Shown piece after piece: positions 26,964 to 49,135 of a stretch of 64,000 nucleotides of DNA. The notes beneath the pieces are model-generated. The model had not been told where the DNA came from, ran no database searches, and saw only the letters and a program-made list of their open reading frames with translations. A program made the position numbers and the translations under genes. The DNA comes from Termitomyces sp. T153 (Eukaryota > Basidiomycota > Agaricomycetes > Agaricales > Lyophyllaceae). The DNA is taken from positions 248,001-312,000 of the forward strand of contig JACKQL020000055.1 in the NCBI GenBank assembly GCA_018296165.2, given 5' to 3'. Every line of letters begins with the position of its first letter. The stretch's first letter is position 1.

Positions 26964-28482
26964 CTAGATGTCAAGGTCAGCATCATTGCTGGGCACATCC
27001 TCCATCTCTCCCTCCTCCCAGTCCTCTTTGCCAATCTTGTTCTCCTCTTGCCAAGCCAAGAATGTTTGACAATTGCTCTGATACCCTGCCACTGTCGCTA
27101 GTGACTGCTTAGCAACAGCAAACCTCAACCTTGCCTCCAACAACTCTGCCCTTGCTCTCTCCAACTCTTTTTGGAGCTGCTTCTCCAACATTGTGGCCCT
27201 CTTGTTATACCCTCTTAGCAGCATTGCCAACATTAGCAGTGTTGACAAGGCCAGGTCTTCCCCCAGGCACTCCAGCTTGTTGTTGCCAACCTGGTGCAGT
27301 GGCTTTCCTAGCAATACTATTAGTAAAAATTAGCTAGTGAAAGAAAAAAATTTACTTGTTGTTAAACCCCTGTCTCCTCTTTGCTGTTCTTCTCCTTCTC
27401 CACCTCCATTGCCTCTTCTTCAACCTCTTGCTCTCCTTCAACTTCACCTCCACTTGCTGCTGGCTCAACCTCAGCAACTGTCACTACTGGGGTGTCCTCT
27501 CCCATCTCCACATCCTCAGTCTCCTTCTTCTCATTGCTAGCAACTGTCTTTTGTTCCTTAGTTGAAGTGACTGAGCTTGGACTTGCTGCTTGCTTACATG
27601 CCAAAGGCACATTGTCCCTATCATTGCTGTCACTAGCACTCTCCTTGTTGCTAGCATTGTTGTCACTCTCCACCACATTTCAACTCTTTTCCTGCTGCTT
27701 CTCCTTAGCAACTCCACTACCACCCACAACCATCCCATCCTGCAAAGTCAGCCAATTCAAGCTCAAATGCTTGATTTAAATGGGTTCCTTCCTTGTTGCT
27801 AACTCCCATTGTTGCTCCACAAAAGTTCTGGCCTGTTGCACCAAGGCCACCTTTGTTGCTATCCCTCTCACAAACTTCCTGCCAGTGCTCCTTGACAACT
27901 TACTCCTGTACAAACAACCTTTTCTTGAGCTATTGCAGTGATAGCAAGGTTGGGCACTAGTGGGGTACCAGCACTCCTCTGGATTGTTGTTGGCCCAGCA
28001 GTTGTTGCACTTGAAAGAGTTGTTAGTGACTATACTAGCAATGATTGCCAAGGACTCACCACTCCCTGTTTCTCTTTGAATGCTTGCCTCTCCTCAGTTG
28101 ACATTGTCATCTTTCCCTTTGCCTTCTTCCACCCCTGCACCTATGCCTGTATTCACCACTGTTAAGGCCTTCCTCCATTGCAAAAGACTTGCCAGCTTCT
28201 TGTTGGTAAAGGTATCTTGAATTGGTTCCTGTAATGATGTTAGCAATGATAGCTAAGGGTTAGTGATGGATTATGACTTACTGTGAATTCCTCTTCCTCC
28301 TCCTCTTCTCTGGCATTCCCTTTGCCCTTCCCTTTACCTTTGGGGGTTGTTGCCAACCCCTTAGGGACACTGCCAGCTGCACACTTGGGAGTGGAGAGCC
28401 CAGCCTCCCCAATGTCCCCACAATTCATGCTGACCTTGCCCCTGTGGCCCTCACTGCACTCAGCTCCCATTGCTGCCATCAA
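26964..28482 (-). pseudogene. Antisense accessory gene of gypsy D with zinc-cluster-like motif
   Basis: Lies downstream of the integrase end on the opposite strand. Pieces from N- to C-terminus: a Lys/Gly then poly-Glu segment (28240-28482), a cysteine cluster (27890-28010) with spacing C-x2-C-x8-C-x7-C-x2-C-x6-C (CNNCW, then PCYHCNSSRKGCLYR), an acidic segment (27362-27676), and a C-terminal coiled-coil-like block (LEKQLQKELERARAELLEAR, 26964-27314) ending in an acidic tail. Frames change between pieces, consistent with introns plus decay. The same organisation is seen in gypsy B and element C. The cysteine spacing recalls fungal Zn(II)2Cys6 clusters, but DNA binding is inference. Confidence 0.6.
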
Positions 28483-28500
28483 CTCATGTGGTGGGTGCTG

Positions 28501-29910
28501 AAAGAGGAATTGGTCATTTGGAAATAAATCCTCAAACAGCTAAAATTACCTTAGCAGAGTTGCTGGCCTTAGTAATGTTGCTAGCACTTACCATCATGCC
28601 AGCCTCCAAGTCCTCCATCAGAAACTTTAGCAACAATGGGAGTGGAGACTAGTAACATGGTTAACAATGCTGCCAGAAAGCAATAGAAAAACTGACAAAG
28701 TGCTTGTTGTACTCCCTGATCCAATCCTCCCCCTTGTATTGTTTGTACAGCTGCCAACACTCTTTGTTAACAGTTGCCAGCTCTGCCTACTCCATCTCAC
28801 TTCCAGCCATCTCAAACCATCGAAGCCAAATTTTGAAAACAGCAGTGACCACTATCTGAGGATTTGTTGCCAAGGATGCACATGCAACAGACAGAAGACA
28901 GTTGACCTAATCAAGGGACACCTGGGCCATGGCATGCTTCTCAAGCTAGGAGGTAAGATCTGGAGACATAGTAATAAGATGGAGATTACTAAGGGAGGTT
29001 AAGAGATAAGAGGTGGAAAGGAGAACTGATGAAGTCCAGCTGAATTGCTAGCTGCTTTTATTCTTACCTTTCTAGGCACATGGACTATGCAAGCAATGAT
29101 GGGACTTTGAGTTGACTGAAAACATTCAAGATTTCAGCATAGGGGAAGATGATAAGACCCAATGGTTGCTGAGCATGGTTTTTGGCATTTATAATTGGAC
29201 AGCATCTGACTATATTGCACATGACCATGCACCATATCACACATGGCCATGCACTATATCACACATGGCCATGCACAAGTTACAACACTTCTCATGTGGA
29301 GTTTAGCCCCAAGGTCTGGAATGATGTAGCCTTTGCATGAGATTTTAGTGACCACAGGATCTCTGGATCATAAGCCCAATCACATAGAGTCTGGCCCTTG
29401 GGTCTAGAACAAGAAAGCTGAGACCTTCCTTTAGCAATGATTGATAGTGACATTACCTGGCAATAATTATAACTCCTTTCAAAAATGGATATATTAAAGG
29501 ACATGTGATTTCTTACTTATTATTTTTCTTGTCTGGCTTACAAACATACTTGAACAGCATCTACATGTCAGGTATTGACATCAGTAATGCTCTTTTCTTG
29601 TGATTGACAATTGTTATGCATTATATTGACATTGCATATGTATACTTGGTTATCATACTGACACTTTGGCAGACACTGTTGCTGGCAGTGACTAATATTT
29701 CCTTTCTAAATACTATACCTACAAACAGTATAAATATTGCCTGTACACAGAGACAAACCAATGAACAGAGTACTGTTCCCCTCATTAGCTCTCAGCTTCA
29801 GATTTCTTATTGCTCTTTCTCATCATCACCAATGACTTAGCAACAAGTCTTGACAACCTTAACTTCAATCTAGCATGGGTGCTGACTACAGGTGCCCTTA
29901 GTGGTATTAT
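28501..29910. other. CG-poor repeat DNA, probably 3' part of gypsy D or later insertions
   Basis: No credible coding region. It contains many short words such as 'ttagcaa' and 'ctagtgac' shared with gypsy D and a short 22-bp tandem repeat. An LTR of D may be hidden here but I could not pair it with a 5' copy. Confidence 0.35.
29225..29276. repeat. 22-bp tandem repeat, about 2.4 copies
   Basis: Unit ccatgcaccatatcacacat plus gg, then a copy with one change, then a partial unit. Confidence 0.85.
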
Positions 29911-30664
29911 GACTTAGCAATGCTAGTGACTACAGCTAGTGATTAGTTTGCATTTGTCCCACAGTTTACATTACCTTCACTCATTTCTTGTTCCCCAACT
30001 CCTTTCTTGTTCCCCAACTCCTTTCTATTGCTTAGTTCCCTCTTTTCTAGTGACTCTTTTGCCTCTATCCAGCAACCTTTTAATACCATCTAGCAAGTTA
30101 GGCTAGCAATAGTGACTTTTTTTTCACTTCACTCCTCATTATTATCTCTTGTTTTCTGGGACAGTTACTGACTTGCCCCTATATACTTCCTATTGTGAAC
30201 TACCCTATCTAGTTGCTAGTGTTTAGGTCTTCCTGTTGGTTTCCTGCATGGCAGCTAGGCAGCATAGGAGTGCATCAATGACTTAGTGATGTTAGCAATT
30301 ATGGCTAGTGATTACTTTGTGTTCATCCCCCAGTTCACATAAACTTCATTCCTCCCTTGTTTCTCACTCCCTTTCTATTGCTTGGTTCCCCTTTTCTAGC
30401 AACTCTTTTGTCACTGGCCCTTTCTCCTTCTGTTTCCCTGTGACCTTTTGTTACTGTCTAGCAAGTTAGACTAGCAATAGCAATACTTTTCACTTGACTC
30501 TTCATTTCCTTCACACCAATTAGCTCTTGCTTTCTGGGACAGTTACTGACTTGCCCCTATTAACTTCCTATTTCCAGCTACTCAATCTAGTTGCCAGTGT
30601 GTTTAGGTCTTCTTTTCTTGGTTTTTTTTGCATGGCAGCTAGGCAGCATAGGAGCACATCAATG
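29911..30664. repeat. Tandem duplication of a 370-385-bp unit
   Basis: Two adjacent direct copies, 29911-30279 and 30280-30664. Both begin 'gacttag...tagcaa' style sequence, both contain 'ttctgggacagttactgact' followed by 'tgcccctat', and both end 'ggcagctaggcagcatagga' then 'catcaatg'. The copies differ by substitutions and small indels, so the duplication is old. Old gypsy A starts directly after the second copy. Confidence 0.8.
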
Positions 30665-32320
30665 TGCTATATGAAAAATTGACAGCAAAGACTGTAATTA
30701 CCAGTTTATGAAAAATAAGTGAGCAGTTTAGGTCTCAAAGACACACTGAATTGTGGATCAGACACTGACATCTTCTCTGCCCCAGATGCCTCCCTCCATG
30801 AAATGGTTTTCTCTCCAGACACTCTCACAGCACACCTCTCATTGCACTCCTCCCACACCCTCCTCCACACCACCCTCCCCTTTGCTGCCAGCTCCATCCC
30901 CACTCTGGTTGACAGTAGTGCCACCAACAACTTCATTAATGAATCCCTGACAGTGCTTGTTCCACAACACCTCTAGTGCCTCCTCACTTGCATTCTCCTC
31001 AAACTCTTCAATGGCAATCCTACCTCTGCCAGAGACATCACCCACTGTGTGGAAACAACTATGACCTTTGCCAATGGACAATGACAGGACCTCTGGTTGC
31101 TAGTCACCAAGCTACATGCCTCTGTCCCCCTTGTTCTTAGCTTTTCCTGACTCCACACAACTAATCCCCACATTGACTGGCCCAGCCTCACCCTCTGCCT
31201 TGACTGGGAAAGCTTGACTGACTCCAGACAAGTCCTCTTTAACATCTCACCTCATTCAAAAGGCCCAGAAGACACTACTAATGTTTCTCAAACCTCTCCA
31301 TAGCTCTGTTCAAAGTCTGTGCAATTGTTCATCATCTACATCTGACTGACTCAACAACTCCCTGATGGTCCCCCCCACCCTTGTTGACAGTGGAGCCTCC
31401 AGCATCTTTGTTAGCAAGCAGCTTGACCTTCTACACAACACCCTCAACAGGCCTCTCAAACTCCAACTCTTCAATGGAAGCCCTGCCTCAACTGGAATCA
31501 CCCAATATCACAACAGTGCCCTCATACTCAACAATGACTTAGAATTCCAGGTCTGGATCCTCATCACTCAGCTTCTGGAGTCAACCCTAATGGTGCTTGG
31601 ACTCCCTTGGTTACAGGATGTTAACTCTGACATTGACTGGAGGAACCTCACTATGTGAGTTCCAGGCCCCAAAGCAAGCCTAGCAGCTGCCATCCCTCTC
31701 CAACTCCAGTCCCCCTCAAACTCCAATGTCCTCAACCCCAACTCCAGCAGCTCTGGAGGAACTCAAAGCCCCACAACCCTCAAGGACAACCAAGAAAGAG
31801 AGGAAAATGCACCTTCACTCCAGTCCTCCATCAACACACTCTGACAGCTTCTCCACAACATTCTCAGAATCAATATAAAGGCCTGTGGTACTCTAACCAA
31901 CAACACCAGGCAACTCTGGACCCCACCACCACCACTCTAGACACCACTGCCACTACTCTGGACCCTGCTGCCACAACTCCAATGATCACCCCCATTGATC
32001 CAGAAGCCCTCAACATTGAAATTATTGGCACTGTCCCCCTTGCATGCATCTGACAAGATGGGATCCCCATTTATCAGCTTCAAATCACTCCAGCCCTACT
32101 AGAAGAACACTTACACATGCAGGAACTACCCCACCAAAACTAAAAACAGAGGAACAGATCTTACATGAAGTAGTTCCTGTAGTTCCTCTGGAGTACCATG
32201 AATTCACTGACATATTCTCTGAAGAAAGTGCTAAGGAATTCCCCCCACACCAATCCTACAATCACAACATCAATCTTGAAGAAGGCACCTCCCCCTCTTT
32301 TGGCAAGATCTATGACATGT
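30665..32320 (+). pseudogene. Gypsy A: gag end, two protease domains and N-terminal pol
   Basis: Left part of an old chromovirus-type element, homologous to gypsy B 41640-44220 but without the solo LTR found in B. It opens with the Gag C-terminus (CNYQF) and then has two retropepsin-like domains: LVDSSATNNFI around 30905 (active-site Gly changed to Ser) and LVDSGASSIFV around 31380. The pol linker follows (EQILHEVVPVVPLEYHEFTD) and the frame reaches GKIYDM, where element C is inserted. The next residues (SEIK) are found inverted at 49931-49717. CG is nearly absent and several stops are present. Confidence 0.8.
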
Positions 32321-33458
32321 TGTCACGACCCATTCCCTGAAGCCCCATACACCGCCCAACAAATGCCCGCTCCCCTGGACCCCCCCCCCCCCGATGCTTT
32401 GTCGAACTTCCCCAGCACTCCACGCCTACTCTGGCTAACTCCGGCACATTCTCGGCTAACTCCGATGGCCCTCTGGCCAACTCCGACGTCTTCCCCACAG
32501 CCGCCAGTGCTTCCCCTGGACTTCCTGAGCCCCTGGGACCACTCCCCCGCCATGCCTGACCCCATTACACATCATCAACTTGACACCCTGGCTTCCCTGA
32601 CTTACTCTGGAGTATCATGACAGCCTTGGAACAGACCATGTTGCAATTGATCCCATCAACATATCAATGCAGCCTGCCCTCTGATTGTAACCGACACCCA
32701 TCAACTCCGTCGAGCTCCGCCAAGCCCCGCCACCACAGCCAACGTCCCCGAAGCTCTTCAGTAGTCAGTATATAAGACATAGAGTAGCTCCTCGTACTCT
32801 AGTCTTGAGATTATCTATCTACCTACCTTTCTGATGTGTTTCTGATTGTTTCTTCTCGTGTTTTGTGTCTCATGTCTTGTTTTCCTTACTCTCAGTCTCC
32901 CAGTCTTATCTTGTTTCTGTTCCATTATCCTTTTATCATCATTCCATGTCTCCACCTGAATCTATTCTCATTCTCATCTCATCTTTGTCTTGTTCAACTC
33001 CATATTGCTCCATTTGATTCTGTCTATTGTGTTCAAGTCCTCCCGACCATAATGTACTCACAAACTCCGCAATTACAATTACAAACCTCCGATGCTCGTT
33101 ACCACCCCCAGACCCTGCTATACACTTGGCTCTGAACCCCATCAATCCCTGTTGATCCCCCATCAGAACTCCAGCTCCACTCCTGTCATCTGCGTAGCCT
33201 CTGCCTCCTCCGCACCCGCAATACTCACACACAGATTTATGCCTGAACCCTGCCAGGTCCGTCCCCCTCCCCCGCAGCTTGTCCTCTACTCCTCCGGACC
33301 TCCCTGGACTTGCTTGGATCAATCTCCCTTGGCTATCCTCACAAGTCCCCAGTGCTTGGAACACCTCCAAGTGCTCAGTTGTCAGTGCAGGGAATCATGT
33401 TTGCCTAGTAAGGACTTGCCCACTGTAGCTGAGCCCCCGTGGTCAGTGGAACCTGACA
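32321..33458 (+). repeat. 5' LTR of element C
   Basis: Starts TGTCACGACC and ends GGAACCTGACA; 1138 bp. It is preceded by CATGT (32316-32320); the matching CATGT lies at the far end of C, at 49927-49931 in inverted orientation. Solo relatives: 54962-56087 and 62339-63456. Confidence 0.88.
32769..32813 (+). promoter_or_regulatory. TATA box and predicted transcript start in the C LTR
   Basis: TATATAA at 32769-32775. The 13-mer AGTCTTGAGATTA at 32801-32813, 32 nt after the TATA start, is the exact reverse complement of the 13 nt directly after this LTR (33459-33471). Confidence 0.65.
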
Positions 33459-33471
33459 TAATCTCAAGACT
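33459..33471 (+). promoter_or_regulatory. Predicted self-priming primer-binding site of element C
   Basis: TAATCTCAAGACT follows the LTR with no gap. It carries no TGG expected of a tRNA-type site but pairs over 13 nt with the predicted 5' end of the element's own RNA (32801-32813). Confidence 0.6.
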
Positions 33472-33490
33472 CTCCCTTACCCCACTTGTG

Positions 33491-34282: not shown

Positions 34283-36347
34283 CCCCAACAACTCCAGAAC
34301 AAGACCAAGGAATCCCTGAGCTTCTAGGAATGGCTATGCACCCCCACCCTGCTGCTTGAAGCACAGCCCAGAGTTCATGAGGAGAACCCTGGCACTCCAA
34401 CCTCAATGAAGAACAACTCTGGACCCCCACCCACTACTTCAGCACCTGCCTACTACCTCAACCACCTTCTCCTGTATGATCCGGAACCCCCGACGTTAAA
34501 GACCCTCGATGCTGACCCTCCCCGCACACCACCCCCAGACGTAAACTCCGCCACCAGACTCTGCCACCTCCCACAAAGTAACCCCCAGCACAGGAGTTAC
34601 CCCAAACTAACTATAGGAAAAATGGCCCTACACGAAGTAGTTCCTGAAGTACTCTAAAATTGCTGACCTGTTCACATAAGGGAGGGAGAAGCCCCACCAT
34701 CATCCCAGAGACGGCCAATCAACCCACTCAAACATCCTGATGAGCCAAGAGCATATGCTCTGACATCCAGGGGGGACTCCCCTGCCAGGACTGACAACCC
34801 AAATAACCCTGCACTGGCTTGAAGCTGCCCCAATCCACCCCTCTGACCCACTCCGGATTCTAGCAACACAACTCCGGGGCCCCCACTCTGACTCCAATAT
34901 CCAACCAAGGGGACCTACAATGCCAGCCCCACACCCCATACAACCCTGCCCCTATGCTGGAAGATGTCTATCAAGCAGGGACCGCATCAACGGAGTAACC
35001 TGAAACAAACCCCATGCGAAGTAATCTCCCGGAGTACCCTAAAAGTTGCTGATGCCTTCCCCAAGAAGTGAGCGGTGCCTCTCCCCACTGCTACCCCCAC
35101 ATTTGCAACAACCTCCAGGCCGCTCCGGAACACAAATGAAGAGTTGCCTCAACTGCGCTGTGACTCCCGGGGAGTCCCACTCCAATGCCTCCCCACGACT
35201 GACTTCCCCGCCACCCCCCAACAATCATGAACAACCATCTTCCTCCATCCAAGCTCAGCTCCAGGAGCCACTGCCACTCCTACACAACAACTCTGCTGCT
35301 CTGCAAAAAACCCCCACTCCGGAGCTCCCCCTCTGATTCACGACACAGCCCCACCAACAAGTTAAGACCCAACCCCAACCCCCACATCGACCCCAGACCC
35401 CTGGTACTCATGCTTGGAACTGTGGACCAACAAAATGTGCCTCAGACCCCTCCCTCTGCCCGCACCTCCCCCAAAAGCCAACACAACCAACAAACCCCCA
35501 CCAAGTGACCCTTGTGTTGACTCAGGGACCGCCCACTTCTTCCCCAATGAAGGAACCACCGATCCCCAGAAGGAACAACCCATGGAACAAGCCCCGAAGC
35601 ATCTCTGCTGAGGTGAGCCATTCCCCAACCAACCCCCGTGCTGCCCCTGCCCAAAATAAACATCCACCAATACAACCCCAACAGACCCCCAAACTCTAGG
35701 GAGTGTCAGAATTACATGACCTGGAACCTTCAAATTTCGACTCCGGACTCAAAGGAACTGGTCAGGACTGATCACCCTGCACCCCGCCCCCTTGGTCATC
35801 AACACTCCAGAGCACACCAAAGCACCACCCAAACATGCCCGCCCACAGATGCAATACTCCAGAGCATGACTTTGACCTGGACCAACACCCCGGAGCATAG
35901 CAAAGCCTGATCCTGAGTACCCTTCACCAAATACAATACTCCGGAGCTCGCCCCGACAACTCCAGGGCTAGCTGACACAGATGGCACTAGTGGGCCTAAC
36001 CCCCGCCTCTGGATCCACTAGGGATTCAACTCCCACCAGCACCCCTGCATGTTTTGCTTACCTCACCCTCACACAAATTAAAGTCTCACTTTGCACACCC
36101 AGGAACAACGAGGAAGTATTGAAAAGTACAAGAAATATATGATACAAGGCAGAATGGGGTGGCAAACTCAAAGACGACAAGAAGCAGGACCCGGCTGCCC
36201 CCTCACTCCTCTCCCAGAACCCCCGCCATCCCTACCCCCAAATCAATCTCCATCTGGGCCCGCATCACCGCCAAGACCTCCGCCAGCCCAAGCAAAGCCT
36301 CCCCCGCATCCGCTGCCACTTCCCACCACAACCCCAGGGCCACTGCA

Positions 36348-37803
36348 TTATGCTGTCAATGCCCCGCCAGCAACCTCCCCACCCTCGCCATCCCCTGCTG
36401 CAACTCTGGAGGCTGACCCACAGGCATCTGCGCCAACCCGTCTTGAATCGATGCAAATGCCATGGAGGCACCATCCAAGAGAACCCAGTGCTCCTGCACC
36501 CAACCTGGCCCCAAACACGATCCATTTAGTAACAGGCGGAGAAGTGGGAACAACACTTACAAAGGATCTCCGCATGCCCTGAAGCGGCCTCGTTGGCCAG
36601 CCAATCCTCCCTCCGCCTTGCTACCTCCAACTCTGCCCATAGCAGACCAGCCTCTGGTGCCATTTCCCGCTCCTCTGCCTCCTCTGTGGGCCGCCCCTCC
36701 TGCTGCATTGGACGCTCCCACAAGCCCCATACCTCCGGCACTCGCTCTGGCGCCCCCCACACCGAGGTGTTCCACGCCCGCTCCAATGCCTCCTTCTCTG
36801 CCTGCGCTGCATCTCAATCCTCCCTTGCCCATCAAAGCTCCCCCTCCCGTGCTGTCAACGCCACCATTAGCACCTCCACCCACTTGCGAAGGAAGACCTC
36901 CGTGATTGAAGGCAGGGGCTCCAGAGGACTTGATGCCCATCCCAAGGCCGCATCCGGGGTAGGAGAGTGAACGTAAAACCCTGGAAAACCTGCCATTGGC
37001 TTGTACCCCCGCAGCCTCTTGCTAGGCCCTGCCCCCAACACCGGGGAAGCTCTCTGCTTCCCATGGTCTGCCACCAAGGACGCCCCCTCCCTCCACCCAC
37101 TCTGCGGAGGCCCCACCTGCCCCGCAGACCACCCCAAGCTCACCTCCCCCAACGTCCGGGTCCTCTGTGCCTCGCCCAGCCGACTCCGCACCCAGTCCTT
37201 GTCCCACCCCTGCTCCGCAGCAACGCACGCTGCTCACCACTTCAACAAGATCAAGCACTTCTTGTGGTTTGCGCAACATAGAAGGCAAATGGAAGTATCA
37301 CGCCACAAGCCCACAGAGGGTGCATCAAAGACACAGGCCTCACCCTGCTGCACACAGAGAACACACTGAGAACAATGGATCAGCGCATGCAACAAAGGGG
37401 AACTCAAAGACTCACTGGGGCCTCGTTTTGGCACCATTCCAGCATTGGAGGGCCCCGAGCCCATGCCAATGCCCTTGCAAACTCCTCCGCCGTCACCTCC
37501 GCCTGAGGGATTTGCTGCAGTGGAGGGACCCCTTCCGCATCCCCTGCCACCAATTGGGGCACCGCGGGACAAAATTTGGCCTGCCTAGGGCCCCCCGAAG
37601 AACCCACCACCACCGTGGACAACTCTGTAGAACTCCATCAGCCACTCCAAAGAAACAGGTCGATGCTGCTCATGACTCCGGTATATCATACCAGCTCAGC
37701 ACTGATGCTCGAACTCCTCCCCCTTGCTGTTGTACACAATCACCACGTCCGCGTCTGAAATCAATGGGGCAGGGGAAGCGGCTGAATAACTGGGAGGGGA
37801 CAT
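36348..37803 (-). pseudogene. Antisense accessory gene of element C with zinc-cluster-like motif
   Basis: Starts at 37803 with MSPPSYSAASPAPLISDADV, about 220 bp from the 3' LTR, matching the B gene start (MSSSAYSPTASRSP) in place and style. The cysteine cluster at about 37260-37375 reads CVLCVQQGEAC, 14 residues, then CLLCCANHKKC, giving C-x2-C-x6-C...C-x2-C-x6-C. A C-terminal block at 36360-36480 (LLDGASMAFASIQDGLAQMP, then GRLLAGH) matches B (LLDRASAALGSIHDGLARMP). RREDWLANEAASG also matches B. Frames switch between these pieces, fitting introns plus some decay. Confidence 0.65.
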
Positions 37804-38021
37804 GACAAAGAATTTGAGGGAGCCCCGGGGTACGTCCAAGGCCTTTTAATTGATTAGGAAGAACCCCCTGATGCAGTGGCGGCCATGCTTTGACTTTGCC
37901 TCCCACACTGCCATCACTCACTGCGGATTGATCAATATTACTAGGCTTTGACTCCCATGCCCCGCTGATCCCTGACCCGCCTCCCCGCATCTTGAGGGTC
38001 TCGACGCTGAAGGGGGGGTGA

Positions 38022-38234
38022 TGTCATGACCCGTTCCCTGAAGCCCCATACACCGCCCAACAAGCCCCCGCTCCCCCGGAACCCCCCCCCAATGCTACGT
38101 TGAACTTCCCCAGCACTCTGCGCCTACTCCAGCTAATTCCGGCACATTCTCAGCTAACTCTGATGGCCCCCTGGCCAACTCCGATGTCTTCCCCACAGCC
38201 ACCAGCACTTCCCCTGGACTTCCTGAGCCCCTGG
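38022..38234 (+). repeat. 3' LTR of element C, first 213 bp
   Basis: Starts TGTCATGACC and is cut by gypsy B after CCTGG (38230-38234). The rest of this LTR is found inverted at 49932-50861; the two parts minus the 5-bp duplication give 1138 bp, the same as the 5' LTR. Confidence 0.85.
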
Positions 38235-39220
38235 TGTCATGACCCACTCCCTAGCTCCCTAGACACTGCTCCCAACCCCTCCCAATTTCCCGTCTAACTC
38301 CCCTGAACCCCGCCCACACTGGATAACTCCGACGCTTCTCCGGCAAACCCCGACGGCAACTCCCTCTCCGTAGCCATCAACACCCCCCCTGAAACCTTCC
38401 CCCACCGTTCCTGGCCACGTCATACGTCCCCGACCCCCTACCCTAGTTTACCCGACCCGTCCTGGAGTGTCACGACGTCCCCGGAGCGGCTGTGCCCCCA
38501 ACTGATCCCATCACAATACCGCCATGGCCTGACCTTGGATTGTACCTGACACCCGTCGACTCCGCACAGCTCTGTCGACCCCTGCCACCATATCTGCCGC
38601 CCTCGGAGGTACCCAGTAGTCAGTATATAAGTCATAGATATAACTCCTTGAACTTTAGTCTTGATATTACATTTACTGGTTTCCTATGTTTTGTCTCTCG
38701 TCTCGTCTCTATTTCTGTTTTTAGGTTTCGAATCTATCTTTTCTCAGTCTTGTCTTGTCTCTGTCTCATCTCAACTGTACATATTTCCTTTGTTCCTCTA
38801 AAGTTCCCTTGCTCCCTATGTCAGTACAAACTCCGCGCACGCGCCACGACCCAAACATTCTTAACAACAACTCCAAACCTTGCTACCTGCTCGGCCCCAG
38901 AACCCATCAAGCCCCGGTGATCCCCTGTCCAGCTCCAACCCCGCCCCCATCAACCGAGAAGCCTCCGCCTACCCCGCAATCTATTTGTGTGCCCACTAAC
39001 TAGCCCTGACACCCGCCCTGGGTCAATGACCAGTACCTTTGGTCTTAGACTCCTCCGGACCACTCAGGACTTGCTCGGGCCGCTCTCCCTAGGGACCCCC
39101 TCGCAAGCTTTCCCCACCTCCGCTCCAACTCCAGATGCCTGGTTATAAGCGCAGGACATCGCGTCCGCCTAGTAAGGACTTGCCAGTGTACTGAGCCCCC
39201 GTCGTCAGCGGAACCTGACA
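38235..39220 (+). repeat. 5' LTR of gypsy B, 986 bp
   Basis: Starts TGTCATGACC, ends GGAACCTGACA. The 3' LTR is the same length once its two halves (49136-49716 and inverted 50862-51266) are summed. Confidence 0.92.
38624..38669 (+). promoter_or_regulatory. TATA box and predicted transcript start in the B LTR
   Basis: TATATAA at 38624-38630; the 13-mer AGTCTTGATATTA at 38657-38669 lies 33 nt after the TATA start and is the exact complement of the site after the LTR (39221-39233). Confidence 0.65.
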
Positions 39221-39233
39221 TAATATCAAGACT
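39221..39233 (+). promoter_or_regulatory. Predicted self-priming primer-binding site of gypsy B
   Basis: TAATATCAAGACT directly follows the 5' LTR. It pairs with 38657-38669 over all 13 nt. One base differs from the C site and is matched by a change in the C LTR partner. No tRNA-type TGG is present. The leader between LTR and Gag ATG is only 32 nt. Confidence 0.65.
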
Positions 39234-39252
39234 TCCCCTTACCCCGTTCTCG

Positions 39253-41625
39253 ATGTCTGCATTTAACCCCGCGTACAACCCCATCGGTTACCCAACTGAT
39301 GCCTACGGCCGGCCCATACTGGAAAATTCCTACGCCCCATTCTACCCGGGTCCCTTCGCGGACCAATACGTGCCTCGTCATTGGACCCCTGACCCCAACC
39401 AGGCGTTCTACGCCCCCTCCATCAGCCAGGGAATACCCCCGGGCTGGCACCGCCCTCCCGCATTCCACGCCGATGGCAACAACCCCTGTATCAACCCTGG
39501 AGGATACTCCACAGCACCCCCCAACCCTGCCTACCTCCCCCCCACCCATTACTATGCATACCCAATCCCTGCTGCAGCTCAAACCCCTCCTTCTCCTAGG
39601 CAGCAAAGGATCAAAGCCTATGCCCAGCAACGCGACAAAGTCCTCCGCTTCCTCCACCTGTCCCCTGCGGAATTTGCAAGGCATACCTGCACCCTCCTCA
39701 CCAACCTAGGCTACCCCGACGCCTCTGCAACTCCGGAGGTCTGGGCGGATCGACTCCTCGACTTCCACAAACGCTACCTACAAGGGAACCTCCTGGAGAA
39801 TATGCAAGGCACCCTGGGCATCGACGACAACTTACGGAACAAGCTCCACACCTTGGTTGAAGAAATCCACACTAGCCTGAACCCCCGCCCCTTTGAAGAC
39901 CCTCTGGATCCCGCCCGCTCCTTCCATGTGCAATGCAAGGAACCCGTCAGGACACAAAACAAAGCCCCATCTTCTGTTCCCCATCAGCAGGAAGAACTCA
40001 ACGCGGCCTCCAGCATCTTGAGGAACCTCAACCCCGTGGGGGGGTTGTTCGACCAACCCGCCGCCCACACCCTGGCTCTCTCCGCCCGGCCCCAGGCCAG
40101 CTCGGTGCCCAGCGCCTTCCGAACCTGAGACCAACCCGCCGCCCCTGAACTCCGTTCCCAATGACCACCCTTACGTGTCGACAACAACAACAGCACCCTC
40201 TCCTATATTGACGAGCCGGGCAACCCTGCCGACGAACACCCCCCACGCAACGGGCCCCAACAAGACCGACCCCCCCACTTCGATCTCCGCACCCCTCGTA
40301 GCAATGCCCCTCCGCCCCGTCCCAACGCCCCAGTCCCCCCGCAACAGCCCATGGGCCCCGGGGCGCCCCGATACCCTCTTTCCGTCAACCCCTCTCATCC
40401 CCCGCCTGCCCCAATGCCTAATCCCCCCACTGACGTCAACTATTTCGGACCCCCAAACCCCGGAGGACCCCCTCCCCCTTGATGGGCCCCAGGACCCGCC
40501 CCGGGTAGTGTGGGTCAAAACCCTGGTGGAGGACCACCCAATGGTGGACCCCCGGGAGGATGGGGCCCGGCGATGGACAGCTTTCCCCCCCAGCGCGGAA
40601 ATGGAAATCACTACTACTACTACTACAACGCCAGACCCCCACCTCGAACTCAAAATTCACAGGACAATACTCGCGACGCACTGGCCCAGGAAGGAAAGCT
40701 CGACATCCAGAAGCCCAAACCCTTCACTGGCCACGACCCTCAGAAGTGGCAAATCTTCCTGACCCAGTGTTTAACTATGTTTCAAGCTAAGCCCATCACT
40801 TTTCAGCTTGAGAGCTCACGAGTGGCCTTCACCACATCATACTTGCAGGGCATCGCCTTCAACCACTACACTGCGCTACTCCGGTTCGACCCAAACAATC
40901 CTGTACTCTCCAATTGGCTTGCTTTCACCCAAGAGTTCTCGAGTAAGTTTGGCATCTTTGACACTGTAGCGGAGGCAGAGGAAAATCTCTTCAACCTCCG
41001 AATGCGCGACAACGAATGCTTCACGACCTTCATCGTACAATTCGAACGAGAGGCCTACGAGACCGGCTGGAATTACAACGCGCTCCGGTTCGCCCTCTGT
41101 CGTGCCCTACCCCAACAGATCAAGGACGTCCTTCGCCTCGCACCCAAACAAACCACCTACGATGGGTACAAGGCACTTGTTACCCAGGTCGACCAACGTT
41201 ATTGGGAAGACTGCAGCAAAAACACGGCACCCCAGACCTCGTGGAACACCTCCGGTAACACCAACTGGCAGGCCGGAGCAACCAATGGCATCTGATCCTC
41301 AATCCCCACTAGCCCTGCTAACCCCGCACCCTGCTTCCCCCCAGGCCAAGGAGTCCCCAACACTAACTGACCCCCGGGGCAGCGCCCACCCGCCCAGCTC
41401 AACGCCACCAACCTCCATGACACCCCAGTACCCCTGGATACCAACCCCGACAATTGCGACAACATCCCGGACCCCGCTGACGATCAGGAAGCCCTATGCG
41501 CAAACAGAATCCAGGACAGCCTGTGGATCGACGTGCCGGAGAAGATGCAGGAGAAATGACGGAAGGAGGGCGCGTGCATCCTATGTGGTGAGCAGGGACA
41601 CTTTATTCGCAGTTGCCCTAAATGA
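39253..41625 (+). pseudogene. Gypsy B gag, interrupted by stops
   Basis: Structural Gag protein. All pieces lie in the frame of the ATG at 39253. The N-terminal part (MSAFNPAYNPIGYP...) is Pro/Tyr-rich then helical. The Gag core is in 40510-41295, with KPKPFTGHDPQKWQIFLTQC and SNWLAFTQEFSSKFG, followed by a CCHC zinc knuckle at 41575-41616 (CILCGEQGHFIRSC). In-frame stops include TGA at 40126-40128 and 41293-41295; the first fits CGA to TGA. Because the frame is shared across the stops, this was recently one ORF. Confidence 0.85.
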
Positions 41626-41810
41626 CAGGTGATGGGACGCGCCGTGTGGACGATCGACGGAGAAGACTGTAACTACCAGTTCATGGAAAACAAGTTGGCA
41701 GTTTAGGTCTGGAAGACGCACTAGACCGCGGACCATATCCCGACGTCTTCTCCGCCCCAGCCACACTCCTCCGCGCAATGATGCTCACCCCGGACAACCC
41801 CCCAGCACAC

Positions 41811-42961
41811 TGATACGATGTTGTCACACCATTGGGAACATAATAAACACCAGAAGTCAAAACAAACATTTATTAAGGCTGAAAACTGTAAGCCTCCTGG
41901 TAAAACAAGTCCCAGCAACATTATCCCTTTAAATACACCAGAAGAAAGACAGAACAGGGTAGGACAAGGACTATACTAGACTATACACTCAATAATAGTT
42001 CAATCACTGTAATGGGAGGGGAAGCATGGGACTGGCAAAAGCACCTGAGTGGCATCAATTCTGGCAAGATCTAGATCTGATCTAAGAATAACCAGATTGG
42101 AATGTTGACTGGAAGAAGGGAAAGGAAGATGAATGGAAGAATATGAAATGAATGGAATGAAGGGAAGGGAAAGGAAGATGAATGGAAGAACCTGAATGGG
42201 AAAGAACCTAAAAGGGGAAGAATATGAAAGGAATAAAGGAAGATGAATGGAATGAATGGGAGGGGACAGATGAATGGAAGAACCTGAATGGGAAAGGACC
42301 TGAATGGGGAAGAATATGAAATAAATAAAGGAAGAAGAAGGGAAGAAACTGAATGGAGAAGAATATGAATGGAAGAAATACAAAGGAGGGAGAGATAGCT
42401 AAGAAGAAGGGAAGAAACTGAATGGAGAAGAATATGAATGGAAGAAATACAAAGGAGGGAGAGATAGCTAAGAAGAAGGGAAGAAACTGAATGGAGAAGA
42501 ATATGAATGGAAGAAATACAAAGGAGGGAGAGATAAATGGGGCAAATGGAAGCTAAGAATGCAAAGGAGGAATGATGGAACCAGGAACTGGCCTGTGGCA
42601 CTGAAACAGGCATGCCAAAAGGGGGAATTAGAAGAACAGTTATGAATAAGGGGCTGGAAAGTATGGAACCAAAAGTCACATGTAGGGAGTGGTCTGTGCA
42701 CTGTAGAAAGAGGTATAAATAGCCCAAGTAGAGTAGCAAATGGACAGGCAATTGATAGGCAAAGGCTCGGTGGTTCACAGGGAGTGAATCACTTAGGCTG
42801 GAGTTTGTTGAGACCCCTCTGCATTCAGAATAGAAATATTTTGGAAGTAAACCCCTTCAACTTCAAGCATTTATCAAGACATCAGTGTGGAATTGGAGTA
42901 GACTGCCTAAGTCTTCAAGAAAGCCCCAGAACTATCAGTATTACTCTAACCCAGTACTACA
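41811..42961 (+). mobile_element. Solo LTR (TGAT family) inside gypsy B, with minisatellite
   Basis: Inserted between Gag and protease of B; gypsy A lacks it at the same point. Flanked by ACAC (41807-41810 and 42962-42965). Starts TGATACGATG and ends GTACTACA. Shared blocks with the other family members: 'aaggctgaaaactgtaagcc' near the start and 'cagggagtgaatcacttagg' after a TATAAAT box at 42714-42720. Longer than its 880-bp relatives largely because of the repeat array at 42100-42535. Most of it is CG-poor, while B around it is CG-rich. Confidence 0.75.
42333..42535. repeat. 69-bp tandem repeat, about three copies
   Basis: 'gaatatgaatggaagaaata' recurs at 42361, 42430 and 42499, exactly 69 nt apart. 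Purine-rich on the plus strand; related degenerate units extend left to about 42100. 69 is a multiple of 3, which creates a long minus-strand open frame without implying a gene. Confidence 0.9.
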
Positions 42962-45900
42962 ACACCTCCCCTCCCACTCCTCCACAAACCTCCTCCTCTG
43001 CACCACTCTCCCCTTCACCGACAAACCCATCCCCACACTAGTCGACAGCGGCACCACCAATAACTTTGTTGACGAATCCCTGGCAACACTCGCCCCACAA
43101 CCCCTCCGCCACCTCCCCGCCCCGATCCCCCTCAAACTCTTTGACAGAGACTCTACCCCAGCGGGAGACATCACTCATTGCCTAGAAATGACCCTGACCT
43201 TTGCTGACGGACAACAGCAAGAACTCCGACTACTCGTCACAAAATTACACCCCTTCGCCCCTGTTGTCTTAGGGTTCTCATGGCTCTGCTCCACCAATCC
43301 CCACGTCGATTGGCCCAGTCTCACCCTACACCTCGACCGGGACAACCCCACCAACTCCGGACTGGTACCCTTCCATGTCTCACCCCCCTCGAGAGCTCTG
43401 AGACCACGATCAACCAACCCCGGACCCCGCCACAACTTCGCTCTAGGTCTGCACGATTGTTCATCATCTATGTCCAACTTGGCGGCTTGCTCAAGGTACT
43501 TCCCACCCTCGTAGACAGCGGCGCCTCCAGTGTCTTTGTCAGCAACCAACTCGACCTCCGATGCAACGACCTTGACAAACCCCTCAAGCTCCAACTCTTC
43601 GACGGGAGCCCCGCCACGACAAGAATCACGCAGTACCACGACAACACCCTCACCCTCGATAACGACCTGCAGTTCCAGGCCCGACTCCTTGTTACCCAAC
43701 TACCCCCGTCGACCCCGATCGTGCTTGGACTCCCATGGCTGCAAGACGTCAATCCCGACATCAACTGGAAGAACCTCACCATGCAATTCCCTGGCCCCAA
43801 AGCAAGCTTAGCGGCCGCCATCCACCTCCGCTTCCAGTCTATCCCTGACCCCAACGCCACCCCGGACCCAACTGCTACACCTATGGTACCCAACCCCGTT
43901 GACTCCAGAAACCTCGACATTAAAATCATCGGCGCTGTCCCCTTCGCATGCCTCCTATGAGAAGGCACCCCTGCCTTCCAGTTGCAAGTCACGCCAGCCC
44001 TACCTGAGGAATACCTCTGCGCAGGGACTACCATGCCAGAAAAAAAGACGGAGGAACAGATCCTATCCAAAGTATATCCCCTGGAGTATCATAAGTTTGC
44101 TGACGTGTTCTCCGAAGGAAGTGCCAAGGAACTCCCTCCGCACCGCTCCTACAACCACCAGATCGACCTCGAAGAAGGTACCTCACCCCCGTTTGGCAAG
44201 ATCTACAACATGTCTGAAATCGAGCTCCGGGCCCTGAAGGAATACCTCGACAACATGCTCGGCAAAGGTTTCATATGTCCCTCGATCTCCGTGGCTGGCA
44301 CCCCGGTTCTGTTTGCCAAGAAAAAAGACGGATCCCTCCGACTCTGTGTGGATTATCGGGGACTCAACAAAGTCACCAAGAAGAACCGGTACCCCCTCCC
44401 CTTAATCAGAGACCTTGTTGATCGCCTTCACAGCGCCAAGATTTACATGAAAATCAACCTTTGTTCTGGCTACAACAACGTCTGGATTGCCCCGGGACAT
44501 GAATGGAAGACCGCCTTTCGCACCCGCTACAGCCTCTTTGAGTATCTCATAATGCCCTTCGGAATGACTAACTCCCCCACCACCTTCCAGTACTTCATGA
44601 ACGACATCTTCCATGACATGAACGATGTCTTTGTCATCGTATATTTGGACGATATCCTGATCTACTTGAATTTGCCGGCGGAGCATTTGGAGCACGTCCG
44701 CCATGTCCTGGAACGACTCCGAGAGTATCACCTTCATGCTAAACCCAAAAAGTGCTCATTCCACACAGCGGAAGTCGAATATCTTGGGGTCATTGTCACC
44801 CCCAACAGTGTGCGCATGGACCCCACCAAGGTCGACATGATACTCAACTGGCCCTCCCCGCGGAACATCAAGGAGGTACAGTCATTCCTGGGGTTTGCTA
44901 ACTTCTATCGCCGCTTCATCGACAACTACTCCGGGATCACCAAACCCCTCAACCGACTCACATGGAAGGACACCCCTTGGGATTGGGACAGCAAGTGCCA
45001 GAGCGTATTCCTCCTCCTGAAGAAGGCCTTCACCTCCGCTCCGGTCCTCCGCCATTTTGACCCCTCCCTACCGATTGTGCTTGAATGTGACGCCTCCAAC
45101 TACGCTATTGCCGGGATACTCTCGCAGTTGAACTCGGGGGGCAAGGATCTCTGCCCCATCGCCTTCTACACCCGATCAATGATCCCAGTGGAACTCAACT
45201 ACGACATTTACGACAAGGAACTCCTTGCGATCGTCAAAGCCTTTTGTCAGTGGCGGGCCTACCTTGAAGGGTCCCTGCACCGCATCCAAGTCTACTCTGA
45301 TCACAACAACCTGCAATATTTCACGACCACAAAACAGCTCAGCCACCACTAGGCTCGATGGTCCAAAACCCTTTTGGAGTACAATTTTACCATCCACTAC
45401 CGCCCCGGGCAACTCGGCACAAAGCCCGACACCCTCACTCGGAGACCCAACATGTATCCAAAGAAATTGTTTGAAACCGAATGAAATGCATTCAACCATC
45501 GAGTGGTAATCCCACCCAAACATCTACATGCCGTGCTGATTTTAAATGAAGAAGGAATCCTCCAGCAAATCAGGAATTCACCCCCGGACCCCTTCTTCAA
45601 CCAGCACGACCCCCACAACAACCCTGACGAGTCGAGCGTAGACAACCCCTTTTTGCTATCCCCGGACCACCACCTGCTGCTCCGGAGTGGGCGAATCTAC
45701 GCCCCGGACCACAAGTCCATTCGCCTTGACATACTCCGGCAGCACCACGATCACAAACTCCGGGGGCACCCAGGAATTTGTAAGACCCTTCAACTCATCT
45801 CCTGGACTTATTTTTGGCCAGGAATGAAGAAGGACATCACGCGATACGTAAGAGCCTGCGAACCCTGCCTACGGGCCAAAGTACCCTGCCATCGCCCCCA

Positions 45901-47011
45901 CGGATTACTGAAACCCCTCCCCATCGGTCGCCGCCCCTGGTCTTCAATATTGATGGATCATATCATCGAACTCCCCGACTCCGAAGGTTTCGACACAATC
46001 CTCGTCGTTGTCTGCTGCCTTACCAAACAAGCCCTCTTTATTTCCTGCCACACCACTGACACCGCCCCGGATTTCGCCAAACTATTTCTAGAACACGTAT
46101 TCTCCAAACATGGACCTCCCGACGACATCATCTCCGACCGTGGACCCCTATTCATATCTCATTTTTGGCAATCGCTGTGCAAGGTGCTCGAGATCAAAAC
46201 CAGCCTCTCTACCACCTACCACCCGGAAACCGACGGACAAACCGAGCGCATAAACCAGACGTTAGAACAGTATCTTTGCCTCTATGTTAACTATTTACAG
46301 AACAACTGGCGTGCGGAGCTTCCCCTTGCCGAATTCACCTACAACAACACGCCTCACTCCGCCACCGGAGTTTCCCCCTTTTACGCCAACAAGGGCTACA
46401 ATCCTCGACTCACGCTGTCCCTCAAAGACATCCCCTCCCACGTTGCCCACGAAGTCGCTGAGGACCTCCGATCCCTCCACCAATTCCTCCGGGATGAGAT
46501 CGACACCGCCAACCAAGCCTACTCCAAGCACGCCAATGCCCGTCGCAAGCTGACCCCCGACTGGCCCTCCGGCACCCTGGTCTGGCTCGACCGACAAAAT
46601 CTTAAGACCTGGAGGCCTTCCATCAAACTCAACCACAAACGCCTTGGCCCATTCAAGATCCTCTGGAAGGTCTCCACCCACGCTTACAAGCTCGACCTGC
46701 CTCTAGGCCTGAAGGGCCTCCACCCTGTGTTCCACGTTCGACTCCTTGAAAGGCACGCTCCAGACCCCTTCCCTGGCCAACGCCTCAGCCGACTGCCCCC
46801 CGTCGAAGTCGAGGACAAGTATCACTACGAGTTCGACAAGATCCTCGACTCCCAGGTAGTTCGCGGCCGACTCCAGTACTTGGTCCGCTGGAAAGGCTAC
46901 GGACCTGAGGACAATACGTGGGAACCCCAAAAGAACCTCGACAGAGCCCCCGACAAACTCCGGGACTTCCACCAACGGAATCCTGCCAAGCCCTGGAACC
47001 CCCGGGACTGA
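42962..47011 (+). pseudogene. Gypsy B pol: two proteases, RT, RNase H, integrase, chromodomain
   Basis: Polyprotein of a chromovirus. Protease domain 1: LVDSGTTNNFVDES at about 43037, with VVLGFSWL. Protease domain 2: LVDSGASSVFVSN at about 43505, with IVLGLPWL. RT at 44230-44900 has the catalytic YLDD (about 44642). RNase H follows (LECDASNYAIAGILS). Integrase has a zinc finger ([14 protein letters not shown] then CEPC), the core Asp residues (MDHIIEL, SDRG) and Glu (TERINQ), and the protein ends with a chromodomain ([10 protein letters not shown]...[16 protein letters not shown]). From protease 2 on, one frame is used and only three stops break it: TGA 43958-43960, TAG 45350-45352 and TGA 45482-45484, each a C-to-T or G-to-A change. 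Protease 1 is in another frame. The chromodomain suggests heterochromatin targeting. Confidence 0.9.
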
Positions 47012-47240
47012 CCCAACACAGATGGCAATAGTGGGCGTAACCCCTGCCTCTGGGTTCACCAGGGATTCAACTCCCACCAGTACTCTCCTACATGTTTCCA
47101 CTTACTCCTCTCCTTGCTCTATCTGAAACTTCCCACACTCAGCAGAAGGACCAGAGACTGTATAGGAACAAGCAGTGTACATATATATACTCGAACAAGA
47201 AGGGGCAGAGAACAAGTCAACGACGGGGTCTGAATTCCCC

Positions 47241-48922
47241 TCACTCTCCCTCCTCCTCCGACCCTAACCCCGCTACCCTTCCCACCATGAACACCTCCAA
47301 CTGTGCCACTACCGCCGCCAGAACCTCGGGTTGCCTGGGAAGTGGTTCCCCCATGTCCGTCGCCATCTCCCACCATGCCCCAGGATCTGCCGTTGCCCTC
47401 CGCCGATGCCCTGCCAACAGACGCCCCATCTGCATAACCCCTTGACCCAACTCCGGCAGAAGGTCCCCAGGCATCCTCGCCAACCCATCATGGATGGACC
47501 CCAGCGCTGCCGACGCTCTGTCGAGAAGGATGCAATGCTCCCTGGCCCAGTCTGTGGAACCTGAATCAGCGCTTAGGAGACGAAAGTGGGGAAACCACTC
47601 ACGAAGCACTCCTTGCTGGCCCGAGGCTGCCTCGTTGGCGAGCCATTCCTCCCGCCGCCGCTGCCCGGACTTCCCCAGCGCTGGAATCCTGCTGGGTCTC
47701 CCGCACCCCTGAGCCTCCTGCCTGCTGCGTCGCCACCTCCGCCGCCTCCACCCACGCCTGCAAATGCACCGTCCGCACCTCCAACTCCTGCAGACAAGAC
47801 AATCGCTCCGCAGCAGTCCCGACGGCAACATCCTTGTCTTTCCACGCCAGGTCCCATTCCCTCCAAACCCCATCTAACTCCCGTCGAGCCCCGTCCCTCT
47901 CCTCCCGTACCCCCTGAATCTCCTCCTCGCATGCAACCAACAACCGTTCCAAGCCCTCTACCCAACACTGCAGATAGGCCTCCGCAACCGACCACAACCT
48001 ATCCATGGACTGCTCAACGGGGGCTCCGGATGTAGGAGAGTACACCGTGGAACCAGGGGGGCCCCCCATTACCTGCTCGCCCTGCGCCCACTTACTGGGA
48101 CCTGCCTCAGGTGAAGGGGACGCTCTCCATTTCCCTTTCTCCTGCGTGGAAGGGGCCCCCTCCCTCCGTCCACCCCACGGGGGGCCCACCTTCATGACAG
48201 GCACGCTAACCCGTTCCCCTTCCCCAGCCCCGGAGCCCCTCCCCGACACCCTGCCCTTCTGCCCTTCCTCCAGCTGCGCTGCAACCCAACCTTGATCCCA
48301 CCCTTGCTCCGCCACGATGCAGACGGCCCACCAACTCAGGGTGATGGAGCACTTCTCGTGCCGCAAACGGCACGAAAGGCACACCGACGTGTCCCGCTGT
48401 ACCCCCAATGCAGGTTCCTCAAACTCACACTGCTCCCCTCGTTGGATACAAGATGCACACTGCAGGGGCATGTTGGTCCGGGAAACATGAAGCTAAGTGG
48501 CCACTCACCAGGGCCGCTGCCTGACACCACTTGAGGGTGGGGGGACCCCTCACCCGACCCACCACCTTGGCAAACTGCTCCAGCATCACCTCCGCCTGTA
48601 CCACCCTCAAACCCTCTGGGACAAGCCAGACCACCCCCGGGCGAATGCCAGACTTGGAGCGCATAGAAGTGACCATGCCCGCCGGTGGCTGCATCACATC
48701 CGCGCCAGACGGTGGCCCTGAGGGACCAGCCATGGCCGCGGACAACTCTGCGAAGGGACAATCAGTGTTCTGGGGTACATGGGACGGACCGCACTCACGA
48801 CTACAGTACATTGCCTTGACCCGACGGCGATCTCAGCAACCCTCTGAATCTTTGGAGGACAACGGCTGGGAAGGTGGGGATGGCGACCTAGATGCTGTGG
48901 GAGAATAAGCTGAAGAAGACAT
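47241..48922 (-). pseudogene. Antisense accessory gene of gypsy B (zinc cluster and coiled coil)
   Basis: Unknown function. Starts at 48922 (MSSSAYSPTASRSPSPPSQP), 214 bp from the 3' LTR, and runs back toward the pol stop. Exons can be set: 48922-48799, 48747-48509, 48459 to about 47603, then a C-terminal exon, with introns of 51, 49 and about 55 nt bounded by GTGAGT...CAG. The third exon opens with a cysteine cluster, CASCIQRGEQC, 15 residues, CLSCRLRHEKC (C-x2-C-x6-C...C-x2-C-x6-C), followed by a charged, probably coiled-coil region (EEEIQGVREERDGARRELDG). The C-terminal part has WLANEAASG and LLDRASAALGSIHDGLARMP, both shared with the gene in element C. One in-frame TGA (from CGA) in exon 1 and one frame change late in exon 3 suggest decay. 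Introns in antisense to the element mean this is a true separate transcription unit, not part of the retro-RNA. Confidence 0.7.
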
Positions 48923-49122: not shown

Positions 49123-49135
49123 GAAGGGGGGGTGA
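49123..49135 (+). other. Polypurine tract of gypsy B
   Basis: GAAGGGGGGG then TGA directly before the 3' LTR start at 49136; the same run occurs before the C 3' LTR at 38009-38018. It would prime plus-strand DNA synthesis. Confidence 0.75.

Follow-up and report, generated by a model that had tools for sequence, protein, structure and literature searches.

Antisense genes encoding six-cysteine proteins in two gypsy retrotransposon lineages of Termitomyces, and a dispersed sequence motif in one of them

A 64,000-nt stretch of the genome of the termite-farmed fungus Termitomyces sp. T153 (contig JACKQL020000055.1, positions 248,001 to 312,000 of the forward strand; hereafter the window) contains three minus-strand genes, B, C and D, each lying in a gypsy-type long terminal repeat (LTR) element and adjoining its 3′ LTR. 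Comparison of their copies across the genome indicates that the gene of element D is almost certainly, and that of element B very probably, an antisense, protein-coding gene under selection. The two proteins are unrelated by profile comparison, so that the antisense genes of the two gypsy lineages differ although their plan is the same. D elements also carry a short motif, T[AG]GCGA, that is very likely a selected DNA feature of this lineage, for which the D protein is a natural candidate reader. A preliminary description of the window, made from its letters and open reading frames, had reported antisense genes in three LTR elements, and all three are borne out; their placement downstream of pol holds for B and D but not for C, whose element has no pol.

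Results

Antisense genes between pol and the 3′ LTR

The copies in the window are decayed, and we therefore took the anatomy of the genes from young copies elsewhere in the assembly (72.4 Mb in 307 contigs). The numbers of genome matches are scored best candidates and hence lower bounds: at least 132 for B, at least 150 for D and at least 150 for C. With these numbers, the cysteine pattern of the proteins is not an accident of C-rich sequence, an outcome that the preliminary description had allowed for.

The young B element (L069 with L070) has LTRs of ~992 nt that are 99.0% identical, and open frames for gag (889 aa) and pol (1394 aa). Its antisense gene lies in the 2.1 kb before the 3′ LTR, with ~215 nt between its ATG and the LTR, and would encode 514 aa if spliced at up to three introns of 51, 49 and 51 nt. 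Intron 2 is forced, because the reading frame changes across it; introns 1 and 3 could be retained, because 51 nt is a multiple of three. A gene model from Termitomyces sp. J132, itself a prediction, has the same length of 514 aa. In the window copy the ends of the gene are exactly where the preliminary description had put them, and the antisense GTGAGT...CAG introns that it mentioned are present (Table 1); exon 1 contains a TGA and the frame is broken before the last exon.

The young D element (L071 with L072) has LTRs of ~1147 nt that are 98.9% identical and a pol frame of 1285 aa. Its antisense gene comprises six exons encoding 582 aa and five introns, each 49 to 57 nt long; a branch-like CTAAC site is present in three of the introns, and ~166 nt separate the ATG from the 3′ LTR. 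As in the young B copy, the antisense gene is open. Of 30 copies compared, 18 to 28 have GT and 26 to 30 have AG at these introns. Gene models for D in isolates T112 and J132, again predictions, have 578 to 581 aa, and the J132 protein P0130 is 100% identical over 70% of the young D protein. The window copy starts with an ATG at 28969, not at 28482 as described earlier, and meets a stop at codon 8; the earlier end point, 26964, stands.

The position of the genes recurs throughout the genome. Among the B matches listed, 100 of 132 have a listed reverse transcriptase (RT) within 12 kb; 98 of these 100 are antisense to it, 88 at a distance of ~2.75 kb. Starting from the RT matches listed, in which several lineages are mixed, 96 of 150 are followed by a listed B gene at no more than 7 kb downstream, and the other 54 either belong to other lineages or have B genes that are not among the matches listed. 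In D, the alignments of 27 among 30 loci extend beyond the point of the reference at which the pol frame ends on the opposite strand. Two B loci (L034 on C43, L035 on C74) agree in how closely and over what span they align to the reference, and their contigs agree in the spacing between RT and gene, as if they were one duplicated or uncollapsed region.

Related genes occur in other Termitomyces. The B gene is present in isolates Mn162, T112 and J132, and D-type gene models in five isolates, including T159_Od127 and T32_za158, whose D-type proteins are 32-35% identical (four compared end to end). One of the models, P0188, matches D in 23/32 residues of the cysteine cluster, and the models P0186, P0187, P0189 and P0190 are without part of it. 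A prefiltered search gave no relatives outside Termitomyces among the 120 listed of 133 B matches or among 71 D matches. The J132 model P0132 joins a D-type antisense protein to a copia-type gag and Pol_BBD; either an insertion is nested there or the model is chimeric.

As had been proposed, D belongs to a gypsy lineage different from that of B. The pol of B is of the chromovirus type with a chromodomain; that of D has no chromodomain match at E ≤ 0.01 and is 23-24% identical to the window B pol where tblastn aligns the two. Profile comparison of the B and D antisense proteins returned a probability of 0.5%, and we claim no homology between them.

Selection on the antisense proteins

Selection was assessed from parsimony counts on trees rather than with a codon model. 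Changes were typed as CpG transitions, other transitions or transversions, because the copies decay mainly through CpG transitions, and the resulting ratio, akin to dN/dS, sets nonsynonymous against synonymous counts relative to the opportunities of each type. The trees hold 29 of 31 rows for B (L026 and L035 omitted) and 27 of 31 for D (L040, L044, L045 and L064 omitted).

On the internal branches of the D tree the ratio is 0.42, falling to 0.37 without CpG changes and 0.25 for transversions, and stops number 27 against 64.1 expected. The cysteine cluster is the most constrained part (0.20). Four other reading frames of the same sequence give 1.28 to 1.72 on internal branches, with 1.43 and 1.62 for the shifted frames of the same strand. 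Internal branches of B give 0.66, with 2 stops against 12.7 expected; the last 465 pol codons of the same B copies give 0.77, a value raised by misaligned pieces, as the pol transversion ratio of 1.39 indicates. All six cysteines are kept in the 31 aligned B copies, and each D cysteine in 29-31 of 31, figures that are helped by the CpG-poor codons of cysteine. The preliminary description had named many intact homologues in the same position with a ratio below 1 as its support; such a ratio is found on internal branches, and the splice sites are mostly conserved. Six C copies (the window's and five others; L076 was omitted as lying at the same place as L079) are all decayed and give 0.60 for non-CpG changes on internal branches, on few changes, and 0.83 on terminal branches.

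Several results weigh against the reading of B and D as selected genes. Terminal branches show weaker constraint in both, at 0.82 for B (36 stops, 36.1 expected) and 0.61 for D (122 stops, 131.8 expected); the B terminal stops are near expectation, as mostly dead copies should give. The sense frame at offset 1, which shares the wobble position, gives 0.66 in B and 0.56 in D. Transversions separate the antisense frame from this frame in D (0.25 vs 0.58) but hardly in B (0.23 vs 0.42, on few changes), so that splice sites and homology must decide there. Around exons 2 and 3 of D, the models in the database place the junctions differently from ours.

An alternative is that GC-rich sequence has left these frames open by chance, or that a few copies carry a host gene. 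The long mirror frames on the sense strand of B would fit it, as would the offset-1 frame, which seems constrained through the shared wobble sites. Yet each gene is present in more than 100 copies with conserved splice sites, a frame-changing intron and retained cysteines, the four other D frames lie well above 1, and D-type models recur in five isolates, and we find this explanation barely credible. It is also very improbable that an antisense RNA is what is selected, through double-stranded RNA or interference with sense transcription, with the protein incidental: antisense RNA can regulate retrotransposons, but the selection seen here acts on amino acids, most strongly in the D cysteine cluster, and internal branches have fewer stops than expected. 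A separate transcript is not proven by coding potential and splice sites alone; from the sequence, we infer that these genes have an antisense transcript of their own. An ATTAAAA box, TATA-like and outside the LTR, lies 44 nt upstream of the B start codon in the window, is present in 29/31 aligned copies, and occurs also upstream of the C start in L079.

The six-cysteine proteins

In B and D the cysteines form two CxxC-type halves, the second being C-x2-C-x6-C, as had been noted from the window. Their full spacing is C-x2-C-x6-C-x15-C-x2-C-x6-C in B and C-x2-C-x8-C-x8-C-x2-C-x6-C in D. The textbook spacing of the fungal Zn(2)-Cys(6) cluster is C-x2-C-x6-C-x5-12-C-x2-C-x6-8-C. The family profile PF00172 scores 17.4 (window exon), 11.1 and 11.2 bits for B against a cut-off of 21, and gives no match for D; with a linker of 15 in B and spacings of 8 and 8 in D, both outside the textbook range, we do not assign the proteins to this family. 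HBZ, the antisense protein of human T-cell leukemia virus 1 (HTLV-1), is a bZIP protein; a bZIP domain was not matched at E ≤ 5 in Pfam. Likewise, PF04195, the domain of the TRP28 proteins of the plant element Retand, has no match at E ≤ 5 in the young D protein or in any of three B-type models.

Structure prediction suggests a long coil at residues 271-369 of B, where blocks reach a pLDDT of up to 93, and in D a helical N-terminal part followed by a C-terminal coil at 491-556. A cysteine cluster combined with a coil is consistent with a protein that binds DNA in the nucleus and acts on the element encoding it, a reading to which we give an even chance. Set against this, no Pfam domain is found above cut-off in either antisense protein, a search of solved structures returned no match for D and matches only at E ≥ 1.1 for B, and both models have low confidence (mean pLDDT 46), with the cysteine regions in poorly predicted parts.

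We consider it unlikely that the proteins are instead cofactors of the particle or of integration, serving for example in nuclear import or chromatin targeting. The missing chromodomain match in D pol would leave room for a targeting function in another protein, and the N-terminal part of D is predicted to be all-helical. However, B pol has a chromodomain and the antisense gene is present nonetheless, expression from an antisense mRNA of its own suits a particle protein poorly, and Foldseek returned no match for the D model at E ≤ 0.001, a result made weak by the quality of the model.

A dispersed motif in the D element

In the 11.3 kb of the young D element, T[AG]GCGA, often followed by C, occurs 133 times on both strands against 15.4 expected from a first-order Markov model, an enrichment of about nine-fold. 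Its density there is 11.7 per kb; the young B element has 0.83 per kb and the window 0.36. The motif occurs in both orientations, with 7 to 17 sites per kb in the LTR, in gag, in pol and in the antisense gene, and was not found in the 165 nt that separate the D gene from the LTR. In 13 D copies of other subfamilies, depleted of CpG to 0.00-0.02 of expectation, deaminated 7-mer forms of the motif number 250 against 24.2 expected (ten-fold), whereas the same forms are not enriched in B (42 in 30 loci, 47.8 expected) or C (none in 6 loci, 8.4 expected). The intact D hexamer reaches 1.46 times expectation in B loci. Genome-wide, GTCGCTAGCGA has 22 of its 40 matches within 12 kb of a listed D gene, with ~2 expected; two pairs of these matches overlap as a palindrome, and a reversed control word occurs 14 times.

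Conservation was measured in ten of the 13 old copies (L044, L045 and L064 omitted) against single-CpG sites of similar GC content. Outside introns the motif is kept at 0.44 (31 sites) versus 0.224 for 165 controls (6/20000 permutations). Mean retention exceeds the controls in coding sequence (0.40, 23 sites, vs 0.18), in the remaining non-intron sequence (0.55, 8 sites, vs 0.35) and in introns (0.52, 10 sites, vs 0.23). This stricter test supersedes an earlier one made without single-CpG controls, which had given 0.46 vs 0.15. Enrichment and conservation beyond controls mark the motif as very likely a selected DNA feature of D rather than a by-product of codons.

Some observations limit this conclusion. 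The conservation in introns may partly reflect the branch point, and one of the three codon phases shows only a small excess (4 sites, 0.28 vs 0.20). The window D copy is nearly without the motif, with 1 site in 9.7 kb and CpG at 0.03 of expectation. B and C show no motif of comparable strength and spread, so that the argument applies to D only: the leading 6-mers reach ratios of 4.8 in B (count 11) and 5.8 in C (count 10), against 11 for TAGCGA in D (count 88). Two candidate self-motifs of B were rejected, CAACCCCG from the enriched 8-mers because it is confined to one strand and TCTCGTC because it is confined to the LTRs, each of which holds four of its eight sites. Chance matches of the deaminated forms confound the turnover of the motif between D subfamilies, which was therefore not used.

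CpG stands at 1.21 of expectation in the young D copy, and at 0.00-0.03 in old D copies (L039-L047, L049, L053, L063, L064, L067 and window positions 20500-30200). Such strong CpG decay of old copies indicates that the elements were probably methylated, a pressure that an anti-silencing protein would counter.

Element C and the nested organization of the window

In the C gene, the start codon region differs by 1 mismatch from the start of another copy, and homology to B spans 37628 to 36206, which places the end ~140 nt beyond the 36348 given earlier. The shared WLANEAASG of B and C was correctly recognized in the preliminary description. Between the LTRs of the window copy the only gag-pol match is a gag-like remnant at 33431-33583. 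Both C copies that span the element (the window's and L079) consist of LTRs, gag remnant and antisense gene with no pol match, and C therefore likely spread with the help of other elements; four further loci (L074, L075, L077 and L078) have no pol in the ~0.9 kb examined beyond the gene. The earlier view that C lost pol and kept the gene fits the window copy and L079, but the decay of the six compared copies makes the evidence for selection weak. The C element (33461-38018; L079) resembles a pol-less LTR family that keeps the antisense gene together with long proline-rich sense frames.

The elements are nested: an old B-like pol, A (30698-32319 and 51269-52411), is split by C, and the 3′ LTR of C is split by B. 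An inversion of ~1.55 kb (49717-51268) holds the end of the B 3′ LTR, the rest of the C 3′ LTR and a piece of the RT of A. Within B pol, an insertion at ~41810-42963 includes purine-rich tandem repeats (69-nt unit, 42332-42552). Elsewhere, the window contains an inverted repeat (7087-7313 / 8731-8505; 227 nt, 96% identical).

Table 1. Features of elements D, C and B in the window (positions count from the first letter of the window)
Feature	Position	Strand	Basis
D gag	21666-22769	+	tblastn with young D gag, 49-71% identity (pol and gag)
D pol	22675..26427	+	tblastn with young D pol, 49-71% identity (pol and gag); convergent with antisense gene; Pfam domains of young pol
D antisense gene, decayed copy	26964..28969	-	residues 3-581 of young D protein align at 28960-26970 (tblastn); young relative six exons, 582 aa
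D six-cysteine cluster (CNNC...CWYP...CYHC...C)	27914..28009	-	translation; each cysteine in 29-31 of 31 copies
C 5′ LTR	32318..33461	+	self-comparison; matched by LTR of L079
C antisense gene	36206..37803	-	tblastn, 39-53% identical to B protein; intron 2 GT-AG in 6/6 C copies compared
C six-cysteine cluster	37255..37365	-	translation
C 3′ LTR start, interrupted by B insertion	38019..38234	+	87.7% to 32318-32536; remainder inverted at 50868-49932
B 5′ LTR (TG...CA)	38232..39220	+	94.9% to 49133-49716; 93.1% to inverted 51267-50862
B gag	39097..41703	+	85.7% to gag of young copy over 888 aa; Retrotrans_gag
B pol, chromodomain	41676..47008	+	tblastn 88-90%; RVT_1, RNase H, Integrase_H2C2, Chromo
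B antisense gene	47241..48922	-	ATG at 48922, stop ends at 47241; young relative 514 aa; spliced models in other Termitomyces assemblies
B intron 3	47552..47602	-	51 nt; GT-AG in 24/31 aligned copies
B six-cysteine cluster (CASC...C...CLSC...C)	48349..48459	-	six cysteines in 31/31 copies; Zn_clus below curated cut-off
B intron 2	48460..48508	-	49 nt; GT-AG in 30/31 aligned copies
B intron 1	48748..48798	-	51 nt; GT-AG in 23/31 aligned copies
ATTAAAA box	48960..48966	-	see text
B 3′ LTR, first part	49133..49716	+	its end inverted at 51267-50862

Discussion

Genes of this kind are already known from plants and from the fungal element Boty. The plant gypsy genes termed aORF-3R include gene23 of Grande, a gene of RIRE2 and TRP28 of Retand (PMC7264820; PMC11963269). 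Like them, the genes described here lie between pol and the 3′ LTR (in B and D of the window and in the young copy of each, for which both LTRs are mapped), opposite to gag-pol (98/100 listed B genes; D in L071 and the window), and, for B, beside 96/150 listed RTs with a conservation comparable to that of another element protein (0.66 vs 0.77 for pol). The plant proteins are argued to be nuclear or DNA-binding regulators, the Grande gene has its own promoter, and some recently active Retand elements are without coding domains. The Termitomyces proteins differ in their six-cysteine cluster and coil, and D in its five predicted introns and selected dispersed motif; the word "intron" is absent from the main text of PMC7264820 and PMC11963269. 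Within the Zn(2)-Cys(6) family the likeness extends to six cysteines in two CxxC-type halves and the weak B match, and the differences to a score below the Pfam cut-off in B, the deviating spacings and no match in D.

Botrytis is an ascomycete. Its species Botrytis cinerea harbors Boty, whose antisense gene brtn (cited in PMC8365987 and PMC7264820; placed in BcGypsy1 in PMC8365987) is likewise an extra gene of a fungal LTR retrotransposon. The HTLV-1 protein HBZ is nuclear, and its gene lies close to the 3′ LTR on the strand opposite to gag-pol (PMC11963269; PMC7264820). HTLV has its antisense promoter within the 3′ LTR; here the start codon is ~166 nt inside the LTR border in D and ~215 nt in B, and the TATA-like box of B is outside the LTR.

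The VANDAL elements of Arabidopsis are DNA transposons. Like D, they possess a candidate DNA-binding protein of their own, VANC, and a short motif that is dense in the element and rare elsewhere (PMC5735166; PMC10398659), a combination found here for D only, and the CpG decay of D suggests a host that methylates its transposable elements. VANDAL21 motifs are mainly non-coding and VANC targets are often tandem repeats (PMC5735166), whereas the D motif runs throughout gag, pol, antisense gene and LTR.

The preliminary description proposed a retained accessory function. A retained accessory gene is supported by our results; silencing escape and transcription control are its favored putative functions, and for D the selected motif helps. 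In the mechanism that we envisage, antisense transcription would begin in the stretch that separates the ATG from the 3′ LTR, at a promoter just inside that LTR, and the mRNA would undergo splicing and be translated. Replication need not remove the introns, because the RNA that is packaged would be the sense strand, in which they are not spliced. The cysteine cluster would bind zinc and the coil would dimerize the protein, which would enter the nucleus and bind the DNA of its own element as a dimer, in D at T[AG]GCGA. It would then oppose host silencing or set transcription, keeping the element expressed.

Anti-silencing by motif binding in D is a tentative proposal, and its reliance on analogy weighs against it. 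In its fullest form, D might be a self-recognizing anti-silencing system that shields the CpGs of T[AG]GCGAC from methylation, with B and C having independently evolved a protein of the same plan, a scheme that we hold to be possible but doubtful. A competing possibility, also speculative, is that the proteins are ordinary regulators of their own LTR, activators or repressors like HBZ, with no effect on silencing. The place of the gene beside the 3′ LTR, the cysteine cluster with a coil, the long low-confidence and likely disordered stretches, and published antisense genes that are argued to regulate retrotransposition all agree with such a regulator; the spread of the D motif over LTR, gag, pol and gene exceeds what a promoter needs.

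Among the titles and opening lines of abstracts that a search of largely non-subscription literature listed, there is no antisense retrotransposon gene in a basidiomycete, no zinc-cluster antisense gene in a retrotransposon and no selected self-motif in an LTR element, and passages of PMC12810828 and PMC8220671 describe none of these features either. As far as this literature reaches, neither the selected motif nor a six-cysteine form with predicted introns has been described before.

To the antisense extra genes already described in LTR retrotransposons, Termitomyces adds two selected cases in one fungus together with a candidate target, which makes the function of such a gene directly addressable by binding and methylation experiments. 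If the D protein does act on the motif, the VANC principle would extend from plant elements to a fungal LTR retrotransposon.

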